A stretch of DNA of 64,000 nt, taken from assembly GCA_903813345.2 (NCBI GenBank), contig CAIIXF020000005.1, positions 30,443,375 through 30,507,374 of the forward strand. Direction: 5' to 3'. Every line of letters starts with the position of its first letter. The first letter of the stretch is position 1. Below the pieces are notes generated by a model. That model was not told where the DNA came from. It ran no database searches and saw only the letters and a list, made by a program, of their open reading frames with translations. The translations under genes and the position numbers were made by a program. Below, piece by piece: positions 42,301-46,376 of the stretch. This stretch comes from Owenia fusiformis. Its lineage: Eukaryota > Annelida > Polychaeta > Sabellida > Oweniidae.

Positions 42301-45300
42301 CTGATCCATTTCAGTAATAGTAAAACCTGTAGAGAGGAACACATCTGAAAGTGGAATACCTTTTTGTACTTTTCGTGTGTGTATTCACCTTTATGTAATG
42401 TATATCTCTCCATGTCACCCCATTTGAATGAGTAAAATGGATATATGAATTTTTTCATTTCAGGTCTGAAGAAAACTTTATCCAATAATTCTTATGAGGG
42501 AGAGGTGACATTTCTCCCTGGCCCAAATAAACATTTACATCCTAAAGATGGCAGCAGATGTCTTCTTGGGTATGTTATAAATAATTCATAATGATGAATC
42601 CTCTGTTTTTTGATACACTAAAATATGAGGGTATATATTGTTTAGATTTACAATATCGATGTTTGCAGTTGCATATATAGCAAATTAGCAGTTTTTACAA
42701 ATGTGATTCAAGCGTGATTTACATGATTCGGTCTTTTAAGAATGTACTCTTTGATATATTATTTTCTTGTCTACAATTACATACATGGTGTCCAGAAAGT
42801 ATGGGGCCCCTCTAAGCAGACATATACCAATGTCTTCATAGTATGTGTCATATATTATTTTAAAGTTTATCCGAAGTTGATTCAACACTCAAATGGAAAA
42901 AAGTTAAAGGCATTTCAAAATTAGTATATATTGTTTCAGATGTAAAGTGTGTAATGAAGCAGCCCTTTCTTACGCCAGTGGTGAACCTCATACCCCTGAT
43001 GGCTTTGGTATGTCATTTTTCAAAATAAATGTCATGAACATGTTATAAGGAGATGTGTCAAACTAACTTTGACATTATCTTTTCCGATGAATAGTTGTTG
43101 CAAAAATAGTGAAATACATGTATGTACAAAAATAGGTCCAACGGTAGTCATCCCTTCACCGATTGACCAAATATTGTCATTTCCCTGTGTGTCTTATTTT
43201 GAATATACATATAATTTTCAATAAATGGCCCATGGGTCTTATTCCATTTTGAATTGGCTTTGTTTCAAGAAAATAAGGCAATGACGTGAACTAGAAATTT
43301 TACATTGTTGTTCCTCTCTTCAGGAGATGATGCATGGAGAAGGGTGCGTGGTAAATTCCTAGCTATAAATTCGTTTACCATGAGTTGTCGTTGTGAGAAG
43401 AGTCCTGAGGGTGTTGCACCATGCTGCCACCTGGGGGACGGATGTCTAGATCTAGTGCTAGTACACGAGACTTCGAGGATAGACTACATTAGACACTTAT
43501 GGAGGTGTACAGCTAAGAAAGATAATCAGGTTTGAATCTCTTCCTCATATGAATATGAACTGAATATGTCCTTTACTAGGGATCTTACATTTCTAAATAT
43601 TTTCAATATATGTTGTTATAATGGTGTTCATTTGTCAAAAAGTTTTGGACAAATGAAAAAAAACACTAAAACACTAAAACATGATGCATCAAAAGAAAAG
43701 TATCCATTCATACATACACATAATTGTTATTAGTATCATGACAATGATGGAATTAGCATACACCAAGTGAGCCCAATGAATGGTTCTATTTTTATGTCAC
43801 CACCACAAGTGGTCACATATTGTTGTAATCTTCAAATTTTATGGATGGTGTTTCGGCATTCGGAGTTGGGGAGTTGGACATCTGTAACAAATGGCAGGTG
43901 GTGACATTTTTCATATCAATGCCTTATATATGATTTATTATACACAAGTTTTCCATACATGTCAATATCTAACATTAGGCTCTCCAATCCTGTAATACAT
44001 TGCTGTATATCGTTCATAAACTATAATATTTACATGTGCATTGCAGTTTGACATGGACTTCATACAAGTCCACAGAGTGCGTCAGTTTAAGTTCCGGCCA
44101 TTAATTGACGATGATGATGTCATAGATGATTGTGCAGAGGCTCATCCAGATGGTCAACAAACTTTGAAATCTCACGTCAAGCAAGGGTCATGTAATAGTG
44201 TTTGGAACTCTGATGGGGAACCCATTGAGCAAGCAGCTATAGATGTCAGGTAAGATGATATTGATGTCAGGTAAAATGCTAGAGATGTCAGGTAAGATGC
44301 TATTGATATCAGGTACGATGCTATAGATGTCAGTTAAAATGATATTGATGTCAGGTAAAATGCTATAGATGTCAGGTAAGATGCTATTGATATCGGGTAC
44401 GATGCTATTGATGTCAGGTAAAATGATATTGATGTCAGGTAAAATGCTATAGATGTCAGGTAAGATGCTATTGATATCGGGTTCGATGCTATAGATGTCA
44501 GGTAAAATTATATTGATGTCAGGTAAAATGCTTTAGATGTTAGGTAAAATGCTATTGATATCGGGTACGATGCTAATGATGTTAGATGCTGTTGACTGGT
44601 ATATCTGCCTTTGTAACATTTTGTTACACTCTTTGTAACGTGTAATTATAACATACCTATGATGATGTATAGTGTAAACTGTTCACAAGACAGCGGGCCA
44701 ATATAACTTTTGAAAAGCCCGCGCCCGCTAACTTTCTGATTGGTCAAGCGCTGTTACTACGTCATACATTAGGCCTAGGACAAATTGACTCGTACATTCG
44801 TAAGATACAAACATGTGAATAAATCATCATTTCCGAACCAATTAGATAAGAAAATGGTACTCTGACCAGACTAGATCATCATAGGTATGTTATAAATCGT
44901 TTATGTCACTATAGTTGCACATATGCCCTTGGTTCTCAGTGATCAATGTCCCTCCCAAGGTCGGGCCATATATCACTGAAACCCTCGGGCATTTATGCAA
45001 CAATAGTAACATAACCTCTAAGTATGCAATCAGATGTTGACATTTTGTCATGTTAATGCCTTGTAAAGTATAGAATATACATGTTTGTTAACAAAAGGGA
45101 CTTTCAGTAAATAAGTATCATTGGTATTGACATCACAATCATTTCAATCACAATAAGTTTTAATTCAATTTTAATTGTCTACCTTCTTCAGACTTATGGT
45201 TATTCTGATTTAGTTCAGATGAAGATTTACAGAAAATATAACACAATACAGACCTCTATAAAGTAAAAGCCTGTGCTTCCTTGAATCACTTCATGAAATT

Positions 45301-45546
45301 GTGAACAAGTGTACAATACTAATTGGACTCATATTAAAATCTATATTTTAGGATTGTTCTTTATACTTCTGTATATTGTATCATTATGATTAGTAATTGC
45401 GACACCACTATGTAGACAATATTTTTGTTCTTTTTAGAGTTCACTGTCAAGCTATCAAGCTGTTTGCTAGAGGAATTGAAGAATATGATAGTGATGATCA
45501 GATTACTTGTGGAGCATCATGTGTGTCTTGTAGTAGGAAACATTGA
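24339..45546 (+). CDS. CERK: Ceramide kinase, complete, 12 exons
   Basis: CERK phosphorylates ceramide to ceramide-1-phosphate with ATP at internal membranes and is Ca2+-responsive. Exons are 24339-24546, 33332-33577, 38074-38199, 38663-38726, 39210-39355, 40265-40339, 41917-42069, 42464-42569, 42940-43007, 43324-43529, 44047-44249 and 45438-45546. All phases fit, giving 569 residues (human 537). A PH-like region covers about residues 25-150 (exons 1-2; SEIITVQ, HKYKWRERKITLV). The diacylglycerol-kinase catalytic domain follows: FVNPYGGKKRG at 161-171 and the nucleotide-binding GGDG at 220-223, then GIIPAGSTN and LLGYGFYGDV. The CERK-specific CxxxCxxC motif (C372, C376, C379) spans the exon 8/9 junction. 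C-terminal blocks GKFLAIN, HLGDG and LFARGIEE are conserved. Starts at 24402 or 24405 are alternatives. The last ten residues and stop are encoded by a minisatellite unit. Confidence 0.95.
24690..24792 (+). repeat. Solo end related to the 28139-28696 element
   Basis: From TACTAACTTCGAGAGCC onward, about 90 bp parallel the left end of the element at 28139 (shared TTAGATTTTGAAA, GCTCTCC, CAGCTGAA, GTGACCT-like blocks). No matching right end was found. The next foldback begins immediately after it, suggesting truncation or a nested insertion. Confidence 0.6.
24793..25623. mobile_element. Foldback element with ~128-bp inverted repeats
   Basis: The left arm 24793-24920 (TACTACTTTTTTCAAGGC ... CACCTTTGTT) is nearly perfectly complementary to 25496-25623. 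The centre contains no recognisable protein. No target duplication could be fixed. It lies in CERK intron 1, 246 bp after the exon 1 donor. Confidence 0.85.
25690..26201. repeat. Near-perfect 0.5-kb palindrome
   Basis: Arms of about 245 bp pair almost throughout, around a 15-nt loop at 25939-25953 flanked by TGCGGAGG and CCTCCGCA. Outer ends are AATTGTGAAAATAGTAG and its complement. A direct repeat CTGTC(G/A)CACATGTAATAAA occurs before it (from 25672) and beyond it (from 26373), and CTCCGCACCCAATATTT recurs near 26327. The region is therefore composite. It lies in CERK intron 1. Confidence 0.9.
26558..26674. repeat. Small inverted repeat, 23-bp arms
   Basis: GGATTGGCTCCCAGAATGCA at 26558 and its complement ending 26674 (TGTTGCATTCTGGGAGTC...) enclose about 70 bp. 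It is probably the remains of another foldback in CERK intron 1. Confidence 0.6.
27022..27428. mobile_element. Foldback MITE in CERK intron 1
   Basis: Ends read AAAATATTGGCGCTAGC and, inverted, AAAATATTGGCCTTACC. Further paired blocks are ATATATCTTACCTCAAT and CAGTATTTCAAAATGT with their complements. It has no coding content and no clear target duplication. Confidence 0.75.
28139..28696. mobile_element. DNA transposon with exact 10-bp target duplication
   Basis: AGATTACCTT occurs at 28129-28138 and 28697-28706, directly outside inverted ends TACTCACGTCGAGAGCTA and, inverted, TACTCCCGTCGAGAGCTA. The arms continue through TTAGATTTTGAAAGTATA. A 9-10-bp duplication is characteristic of Mutator-like elements. 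The interior has no transposase. It is 558 bp, in CERK intron 1. Confidence 0.85.
29232..29851. mobile_element. TA-flanked mariner-type MITE, CAGGGTGTC ends
   Basis: TA lies at 29230-29231 and 29852-29853. The inverted ends start CAGGGTGTCAAAAAACAACG and continue for about 100 bp with few differences. The 420-bp centre has no intact frame. It lies in CERK intron 1. Confidence 0.88.
30435..32372. mobile_element. 1.9-kb foldback with ~410-bp arms, 5-bp target duplication
   Basis: ATCAC is at 30430-30434 and 32373-32377. Inverted arms of about 410 bp start CACAGGCTGGTATCGAAAAA. The motif GTC(C/A)GCTGTGACGGAGC stands near both the outer and inner end of each arm (30458, 30822, 31968, 32333). A TA-MITE relative (about 31299-31460) is nested in the centre. 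The small frame at 31670-31888 is not recognisable. It lies in CERK intron 1. Confidence 0.88.
32378..33331. other. End of CERK intron 1, no gene seen
   Basis: This single-copy-looking DNA holds a perfect AT hairpin around 32517-32546 (TAGTGAAATATATA and complement). The frame at 32905-33183 has no recognisable protein features. It ends at the acceptor TACTTTCAG of exon 2. Confidence 0.4.
33578..34401. other. CERK intron 2, left part; no gene seen
   Basis: AT-rich DNA between the exon 2 donor and the Harbinger element. A short duplication AAATCACAAAATT(T/C)CCAATATCTGAA occurs near 34049-34098. Nothing else is supported. Confidence 0.35.
34405..36475. mobile_element. PIF/Harbinger transposon, decayed
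   Basis: Inverted ends AG(C/G)CCTCATTATCCGGTC are flanked by CAG at 34402-34404 and 36476-36478, a 3-bp CWG-type duplication expected of Harbinger. Inside each end, tens of bases of repeated TTGCG/CGCAA words (GCGATTTGCG and variants) run in both orientations. A transposase fragment lies on the minus strand at 35549-35881. The 2.07-kb length is short for an autonomous copy. It lies in CERK intron 2. Confidence 0.88.
35549..35881 (-). pseudogene. Harbinger (HARBI1-like) transposase, N-terminal fragment
   Basis: The 110-codon frame begins MWRILFQDVHN. It shows the N-terminal helical region of Harbinger nucleases (LEMTDDEILNRYRMPRP, LILELINIL) and the helix-turn-helix-like block ISLRFYATGCMQM...GVSQPTVSNIV. 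It stops after VFSR. The DDE catalytic domain (about 200 further residues in HARBI1) is not found downstream, so it is truncated. Confidence 0.8.
36488..36609. repeat. Dispersed repeat, copy 1
   Basis: Shares TCTCCAACT, TTCGGCAGTTGG, GGCGTTCA and GGTGGTGACATTTTCATG blocks, in the same order, with copies at 43814-43926 and 48350-48437. The tail TGTTAATGCCTTGT also occurs alone near 45050. It is an unclassified short interspersed repeat without visible TIRs. Confidence 0.6.
36610..38073. other. CERK intron 2, right part; no gene seen
   Basis: Non-coding, AT-rich, with no inverted repeat, tandem array or protein-like frame seen. It ends at the T-rich acceptor ATTTTTTTGTAG of exon 3. Confidence 0.4.
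38880..39065. repeat. Degenerate tandem GTGAACACCTCTCTC words
   Basis: Five or more diverged copies of TGAACACCT(C/T)T occur between 38926 and 39048, in CERK intron 4. The same word appears inside the MITE at 15873-16048, so this is probably the interior of an old relative that expanded. Confidence 0.5.
39356..41916. other. CERK introns 5 and 6 apart from exon 6
   Basis: Apart from exon 6 (40265-40339), no coding sequence is seen. A 134-codon frame at 40412-40816 is low-complexity chance reading. A perfect hairpin lies at 41514-41566 (separate entry). Confidence 0.4.
41514..41566. repeat. Perfect 18-bp hairpin with GC-rich loop
   Basis: GAAAATATCATATTGACA and its exact complement flank a 17-nt loop that itself pairs (GGGC/GCCC). 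It lies in CERK intron 6 and is likely the core of a small foldback. Confidence 0.75.
43814..43926. repeat. Dispersed repeat, copy 2
   Basis: ACATATTGTTG, ATGGATGGTGTTTCGGC, TAACAAATGGCAGGTGGTGA and TCAATGCCTT blocks align with copies 1 and 3. It lies in CERK intron 10. Confidence 0.6.
44236..44571 (+). repeat. 21-bp minisatellite repeating the exon 11 splice donor
   Basis: Sixteen units of GCTATAGATGTCAGGTAAGAT (variants GATATTGATGTCAGGTAAAAT and GCTATTGATATCGGGTACGAT) run without gaps. Units 3-14 repeat as an 84-bp block of four types. The first 14 bases of unit 1 are CERK coding sequence and its CAG|GTAAGA is the real donor at 44249/44250. Most later units retain CAG|GTAA. In frame, every such donor is preceded by no stop but followed by TAA. 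Confidence 0.95.
44901..45014. repeat. Imperfect foldback in CERK intron 11
   Basis: TTATGTCACTATAGTTGCAC ... TCTCAGTGATCAATG pairs with 44967-45014 (CATATATCACTGAAA ... TATGCAACAATAGTAACATAA). It is a small MITE-like structure without a clear duplication. Confidence 0.6.
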
Positions 45547-46376
45547 ACAAGAGACACATTTGGAGCATTATGTGTGTCTTGTAGAAGGAAACATTGAATA
45601 AGAGACACATATTGAGCAGCATGTGTGTCTTGAAGTAGGAAACATTGAACAAGAGACACATGTGGAGCATTATGTGTGTCTTGTAGAAGGAAACATTGAA
45701 TAAGAGACACATATTGAGCAGCATGTGTGTCTTGTAGTAGGAAACATTGAACAAGAGACACATTTGGAGCGTAATGTGTGTCTTGTAGTAGGAAACATTG
45801 AACAAGAGACACATGTTTCTTGTAGCAGGAAACATTGAATAAGAGACACATGTTTCTTGTAGCAGGAAACATTGAATAAAAGACACATATGGAGCAGCAT
45901 GTGTGTCTTGTAGTAGGAAACATTGAACAAAAGACACATCTGGAGTGTCATGTGTGTCTTGTAGTAGGAAACATTGAATAAGAGACACATATGGAGCGGC
46001 ATATGTGTCTTGTAGTAGGAAACATTGCACAAGAGACACATGTGGAGCATTATGTGTGTCCTGTAGCAGGAAACATTGAACAAGAGACACATTTGGAGTG
46101 TAATGTGTGTCATTTAGCAGGAAACATTGAACAAGAGACACATGTGGAGCTTAATATGTGTCTTGTAGCAGGAACATTGAACAAGAGACACAATTGGAGT
46201 GTAATGTGTGTCTTACAGCAGGAAACATTGAACAAAAGAGACATGTGGAGCGTCTTGTTGCAGGAAACATTGCAGAAGTGACACATGTGGATAATTATGT
46301 GTGTCTTGTAGCAGGAAACATTGAACAAGTGACACATATTATGGATCATTATGTGTGTCTTGTAGCAGGAGATGTG
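45511..46376 (+). repeat. 51-bp minisatellite overlapping the CERK stop codon
   Basis: About 17 units of roughly 51 bp share GTGTGTCTTGTAG, CAGGAAACATTGAA and AAGAGACACAT; a few are shortened. Unit 1 encodes CERK residues GASCVSCSRKH and the TGA at 45544-45546. Later units form the probable 3' UTR. One unit has mutated to AATAAA (45875-45880), a possible poly(A) signal. Because 51 is divisible by three, long but meaningless frames occur on both strands. Confidence 0.95.

Follow-up and report, generated by a model that had tools for sequence, protein, structure and literature searches.

The penultimate coding exon of CERK ends in an array of 21-bp tandem units, the first of which is the exon end itself together with its splice donor. 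We consider that this array is probably an exon-junction minisatellite, of the kind described in lancelets as a ‘mirage’, which was produced by duplication through slippage or unequal exchange, grew in blocks and carries donor copies that are mostly neutral. Positions given without a contig are those of the window, the whole stretch of 64,000 nucleotides that was analysed, which has a GC content of 34%.

A donor-bearing array at the end of a CERK exon

A sequence-only reading of this DNA had named the gene as CERK, and Pfam matches to CERK_C (1.2e-27), PH_CERK (1.8e-6) and DAGK_cat (3.4e-6) agree with that identity. The penultimate coding exon is preceded immediately by an acceptor, ...ATTGCAG, and ends in ...EQAAIDV + AG; when it is joined to the terminal exon the frame is restored as R-VHCQAIKLFARGIEEYDSDDQITCGASCVSCSRKH-stop. 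This junction is crossed by the CERK_C profile alignment, which reaches profile position 224 of 227, and the score rises by 21 bits, from 76.3 bits for exons 10 and 11 to 97.3 bits, on addition of the terminal exon; the boundaries of exon 10 were taken from the open frame and the numbers 10 and 11 are nominal. Coordinates are collected in Table 1, in which, as in the text, a slash marks a splice junction.

Table 1. Features of the CERK array and its surroundings in the window, with the places of a dispersed family on other parts of the assembly.
Feature	Position	Strand	Remarks
Penultimate coding exon of CERK	44047..44249	+	Reads FDMDFIQVHRV...EQAAIDV-AG; Pfam CERK_C with flanking exons, 97.3 bits
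Array unit 1	44236..44256	+	14 coding bases + donor GTAAGAT; presumed seed and presumed real donor (CAG/GTAAGA)
Array units 2-16, intronic copies	44257..44571	+	CAG/GTAA in 9/15
Partial array unit 17	44572..44585	+	Donor gone (TTAG/ATGC)
Last coding intron of CERK, 1188 nt	44250..45437	+	Holds the 21-bp array
TAA in frame	44252..44254	+	Met at once with any later donor (GTC AGG TAA); also first stop if the intron is retained
Terminal coding exon of CERK	45438..45546	+	(AG)A GTT CAC...: R VHCQAIKLFARGIEEYDSDDQITCGASCVSCSRKH; TGA at 45544-45546
Dispersed CAGGTAAGCACG family	C1:38277825, C3:7460328, C4:3454492, C5:12849927, C5:13837216, C5:29433414, C6:31354237, C7:13594135-13594470, C9:30529366		

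The array had been placed at 44236-44571, and this stretch indeed holds 16 full 21-bp units, followed by a 17th that lacks the donor. TRF finds it at period 21 (44236-44582, 16.5 copies, score 435) and, with a higher score, at period 84 (4.1 copies, 94% matches, score 610). Both the unit listing and the reading frame confirm that unit 1, GCTATAGATGTCAG/GTAAGAT, consists of the last 14 coding bases of the exon at 44047-44249 plus its donor. Later copies of CAG/GTAA do stand in tandem, as had been proposed, although their number had been overstated at about a dozen: nine of the 15 units 2-16 have the exact word. A GT occupies the donor register in 14 of these 15 units (unit 5 has TT); the variants GTAC and GTTC are found in units 4, 8 and 16 and in unit 12 respectively, and the 12-base donor context of unit 1 recurs exactly in three, units 3, 7 and 11. 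The tandem units span the exon–intron boundary and many of them retain the splice signal, as in mirages. The array also starts at the exon's own donor, as do splicing-modifying VNTRs of the ABCA7/CBS type.

Origin and growth of the array

Four-unit blocks agree at 77-81 of 84 positions, which argues for growth of the array by blocks of four and, with the TRF period of 84, upholds the earlier description of an 84-bp superstructure. Growth from the CERK exon end, the other historical claim of that description, is supported by the sequence in that unit 1 is the exon end. Units 7 and 11 have exactly the sequence of unit 1, and unit 3 departs from it by a single base; unit 1 is thus closer to the third unit of every block than to the first. 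Summed over the other fifteen units, its identity amounts to 277/315, tied with units 7, 11 and 13; unit 9 reaches 279. A near-ancestral unit would show a summed identity as high as this, which fits an exon-end seed without proving it. Towards the far end, units 14, 15 and 17 bear private changes; edge decay is only partial, because unit 16 is identical to unit 8.

From this anatomy we infer that the exon end was the seed and that the array came second. In the mechanism that we favour, slippage or unequal exchange would have made tandem duplicates of a 21-bp stretch that straddles the boundary between the penultimate CERK exon and its intron, after which the array would have grown into the intron in 84-bp blocks of four units, taking copies of the donor along.

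Donor strength and the consequences of using a later donor

Donor strength was estimated as a simple duplex with the U1 5' end. Unit 1, at -11.1 kcal/mol, is the strongest donor of the array and is equalled in units 3, 7 and 11; six of the remaining later units stand at -8.4 kcal/mol and the other six between -1.7 and -7.2 kcal/mol. Because the donors of units 3, 7 and 11 equal the real one, neutrality of the copies for splicing is not to be assumed.

The prediction that any later donor would lead at once to an in-frame TAA holds for all of donors 2-16, each of which would give GTC AGG TAA and a protein ending in ...AAIDVR. Such a product would lose the last 35 residues, the part that aligns with the closing stretch of CERK_C (profile positions 196-224 of 227). 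The distance from the stop to the exon junction would be 16 nt with donor 2, 37 nt with donor 3 and at least 58 nt with donors 4 and later. Nonsense-mediated decay usually follows a rule of 50-55 nt; by this rule, transcripts from donors 2 and 3 would escape decay and those from donors 4 and later would trigger it.

The exon is likely to be defined from upstream, and for this reason nearly all transcripts presumably use the first donor; the remaining donors of the array are probably mostly neutral passengers. Unit 3, the donor context of which is that of unit 1, 42 nt downstream, would be the most likely competitor, and we would expect its use to be rare. Occasional use of a later donor would yield CERK without its last 35 residues.

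We looked in the column variation of the 16 units for a sign that decoy donors are preserved by selection, and saw none: 18 of 144 letters in the donor columns (-3 to +6) depart from the column majority, compared with 18 of 192 elsewhere in the unit, a comparison that is weak evidence because block-duplicated units are not independent. The suggestion that copy number tunes CERK splicing thus finds no support, since the donor columns vary at least as much as the others. Nothing that we found indicates a job for the donor copies. RNA folding of the array gave z = -1.80, with 4 of 100 shuffles as good. A scan for bacterial promoters and terminators returned nine promoter-like signals (7.9 expected) and one terminator-like signal (0.6 expected), which are meaningless in an animal gene.

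Known counterparts

The published cases are compared here as far as they are described in the parts of the papers that were covered. Lancelet mirages are tandem duplications of exon–intron boundaries in the genes for Adh3, troponin C, globins and PGBD5; in those parts of the reports they leave normal splicing undisturbed, are unstable in length and are regarded as possible seeds of new introns (PMC3087553, PMC3902484). The CERK array shares with them tandem units that span the boundary, many with AG/GT, and a block-wise or concerted turnover. The mirages differ in being cephalochordate, with units of 10-160 bp and demonstrated length polymorphism, whereas the CERK array probably belongs to an annelid, has a 21-bp unit with an 84-bp higher order and comes from one assembly (PMC3087553, PMC3902484).

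In humans, the donor GT of exon 18 opens the 25-bp VNTR of ABCA7 intron 18; retention of one unit, with a premature stop, amounted to about 2% in the tissues measured and was independent of array length, and greater length was accompanied by increased skipping of exon 19 and decreased expression (PMC5954066, as excerpted). Both arrays extend from the exon's own donor, and retention of one unit gives a premature stop, in CERK by prediction. The ABCA7 array takes the donor GT as its first two bases whereas unit 1 in CERK also includes 14 coding bases, and RNA and allele-length data exist for ABCA7 (PMC5954066). The human CBS 31-bp VNTR, c.1444_1467+7(16_21), has 16-21 units, each of which by its HGVS name is made up of the last 24 coding and seven intronic bases, the same layout as the 14 + 7 of CERK; gene and lineage are different, and population alleles are known for CBS only (PMC2630376, same limitation). 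Variable internal tandem repeats at exon–intron boundaries have also been catalogued in human segmental duplications. Like the CERK array, these are minisatellites at such boundaries that possibly alter splicing; unlike it, they occur in primate paralogues of recent date, and transcripts were the basis for scoring them (PMC2812944, in the part covered). Near real donors of human genes, competitive decoy donors are depleted in exons, and in introns this holds only for the strongest (PMC8964760, likewise in part).

These counterparts point both ways, because mirages are reported to leave splicing intact and ABCA7 shows both unit retention and length-dependent skipping. The class of exon-end arrays is known from lancelet and human, and the CERK array adds a case. 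In a search of open-licence literature, with most subscription journals outside it, we found no report of an annelid minisatellite of this kind at an exon boundary. Nearest to it come the intronic minisatellites of earthworm metallothionein, for which the parts of the paper covered mention no splice-site unit (PMC12783039). As to lineage, the genome has three matches over the cut-off, one of them with an internal stop, to Eryth_link_C (PF16915), the erythrocruorin linker family known from annelids. Searches with GFP (PF01353), as a lancelet marker, and with mollusc haemocyanin (PF14830) gave no match here and none in the control genomes, and therefore carry no information on lineage. If the host is an annelid, arrays of this class exist outside lancelets and vertebrates as well.

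How the spliceosome settles on the first site when equally good ones follow it is a question that arrays of near-identical donors put to the test, and such arrays have been proposed as one way in which new introns arise. Should the class prove common beyond lancelets and humans, it would be something that mutation produces at exon ends in general, and an animal in which several conserved genes carry natural arrays would lend itself well to measuring their effect on splicing.

Weighing of other explanations

We regard it as unlikely that the later donors, above all that of unit 3, act as decoys in competition with unit 1, with truncated or decay-degraded transcripts in proportion to array length. 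The strength of the copies speaks for such competition, three later donor contexts being those of unit 1 and six more lying within 2.7 kcal/mol of it, as do the immediate closure of the frame after a later donor and the precedent of the ABCA7 array, in which the first GT is the donor of exon 18 and one-unit retention brings a premature stop (PMC5954066, from the part covered). However, conservation is no higher in the donor columns than elsewhere in the unit, the lancelet mirages are reported, in the parts covered, without disturbance of splicing (PMC3087553, PMC3902484), and in ABCA7 it was exon skipping that changed with array length, the one-unit retention of about 2% being constant (PMC5954066). 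Very improbable, in our judgement, is a role in which the units of the array, their donors unused, would serve as consecutive U1 snRNP sites and aid splicing of the last intron or suppress premature cleavage in it. Nine later units would pair with the U1 5' end at -8.4 kcal/mol or better, and AATAAA (44818) and ATTAAA (45333) occur in the intron 3' of the array; yet the donor words vary like other array positions, and chance occurrence of such words would be expected in AT-rich DNA.

We give hardly any credence to a dispersed repeat or satellite that adjoins the exon by chance. A dispersed family that has CAGGTAAG repeats inside it does exist in the genome, in at least nine places, but unit 1 of the CERK array codes for protein in the correct frame. 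The array is also unlike a dispersed repeat, transposable element or satellite because a genome search (which skips very common words) matched its stretch at one site only, with six matches, all here. An exon-junction minisatellite with mostly neutral copies is the explanation that we prefer.

Donor-word arrays elsewhere in the genome

Exon-end arrays recur at other loci of this genome. We sampled 29 loci with at least three CAGGTAAG or CAGGTAA words in close tandem: 17 from triple CAGGTAAG, four from the same word with gaps of up to 25 nt and eight, all on C1, from triple CAGGTAA. The triples of both words were taken from among the matches listed, which for CAGGTAAG reach into C9 and for CAGGTAA cover C1 and the start of C2. 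Five of the 29 start at homology-supported exon ends, two are displaced from such an exon, nine are likely exon ends as judged by eye and 13 have no visible exon. At the five, the first donor of the array follows an exon of XPNPEP3 (L005, 1.7e-15), a probable dynein heavy chain (L009, 9.8e-5, below the Pfam curated cut-off), an Il2rg-family protein as defined by Pfam (L015, 7.6e-8), PP2A-B56 (L018, 1.2e-15) and mTOR (L060, 6.9e-35), and at L005, L018 and L060 the homology alignment reaches the last residue before the donor. The two displaced arrays have their first donor 54 bases downstream of a tRNA-synt_2d exon (L004) and 87 bases downstream of a methyltransferase exon (L017; 0.0053, below cut-off). 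By eye, the unit of the L017 array looks like the sequence at which the methyltransferase exon truly ends (...TACACACCTCGG/GTAAGTTAC), as it would had the array arisen at that exon end and later been separated from it.

The nine likely exon ends (L003, L006, L008, L011, L012, L013, L016, L062 and L069) were judged so from an open frame, an acceptor and, for some, presumed homologues. None of the eight other than L003 reached 0.01 in the Pfam search, and PDB searches of L069, L016 and L011 gave no true match, L069 returning only designed proteins. 

The tandem units inside the dispersed family mentioned above, which was seen in at least nine places (Table 1), read CAGGTAAGCACG... Another long array, at C1:62115189-62117030 and no more than about 90 kb from the contig end, is built of 16-bp units that resemble CAGGTAATACGACTAA.

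Are donor words enriched in arrays, and arrays at exon ends?

Donor words are only modestly over-represented in arrays, to judge from genome-wide counts of the word and of its reverse. Triple CAGGTAAG gave 177 matches (102 forward, 75 reverse) compared with 63 for the reversed word, or at least 17 loci plus at least nine dispersed-family places compared with 10 loci; with gaps of up to 25 nt, the figures are 15 non-dispersed loci and nine reversed-word loci. Single words number 13,502 for CAGGTAAG and 11,865 for its reverse. Triple CAGGTAA gave 458 matches compared with 141, these matches not being independent.

A coding score upstream of the first donor was higher at arrays than at random CAGGTAAG sites (Mann–Whitney p = 0.035), and reached 4 at 15 of 28 arrays compared with 9 of 40 random sites (p = 0.009); at cuts of 6, 8 and 10 the difference was not significant (p = 0.22, 0.26 and 0.69). 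This score favours arrays, several candidate donors having been scored for each; L065, with no candidate, was dropped, and at least L007, L008 and L016 were scored at the wrong donor. Among the controls, L044 lies inside the mTOR array, and L031/L032, L055/L056 and L049-L052 are repeats of one another. Random single CAGGTAAG sites, judged by the same eye, are often real donors too.

The Pfam search covered 20 array loci, with one frame each, and 29 control sites, with 30 frames. At E <= 0.01 it gave matches at 7 of 29 array loci and 2 of 40 controls (Fisher p = 0.025), or 7 of 20 and 2 of 29 if searched sites only are counted (p = 0.017). The figures are 8/29 and 5/40 at 0.05 (p = 0.10), 4/29 and 1/40 above the curated cut-off (p = 0.095), and 5/29 and 2/40 at 0.01 when the displaced L004 and L017 are removed (p = 0.10). 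The array loci left out of the search were L003, L007, L010, L014, L019, L061, L064, L065 and L071, a frame of at least 20 aa being present in L010, L065 and L071; the controls left out were L024, L028, L033, L038, L043 and L053, with no frame of at least 20 aa, L032, L051, L052 and L056 as duplicates or near-duplicates, and L044. The outcome is unstable, because p varies with the Pfam cut (0.025 at 0.01, 0.10 at 0.05). The excess of exon ends in arrays over random donor words is weak to modest, and strong enrichment is not shown.

A more far-reaching proposal is that exon ends in this genome recurrently seed donor-bearing minisatellites, that many unrelated genes (CERK, mTOR, XPNPEP3, PP2A-B56 and others) would carry runs of near-equal donors, the runs varying in length, and that in CERK the length of the array would determine how much is made of a truncated isoform that is spliced from donor 3 and escapes decay. 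Taken as a whole, we think this improbable.

A second array at the CERK stop codon

Another array, of 51-bp units, starts inside the terminal CERK exon and extends over 45508-46370 (TRF). Its first unit supplies the last 12 residues of CERK (CGASCVSCSRKH) and the stop codon. The donor of the last intron and the coding end of CERK both lie within minisatellites, since the 21-bp array covers the one and the 51-bp array the other. A 211-base piece of the 51-bp array has five matches in the genome, all at this one place. Its first two units fold into hairpins, with z = -4.13 and none of 200 shuffles as good.
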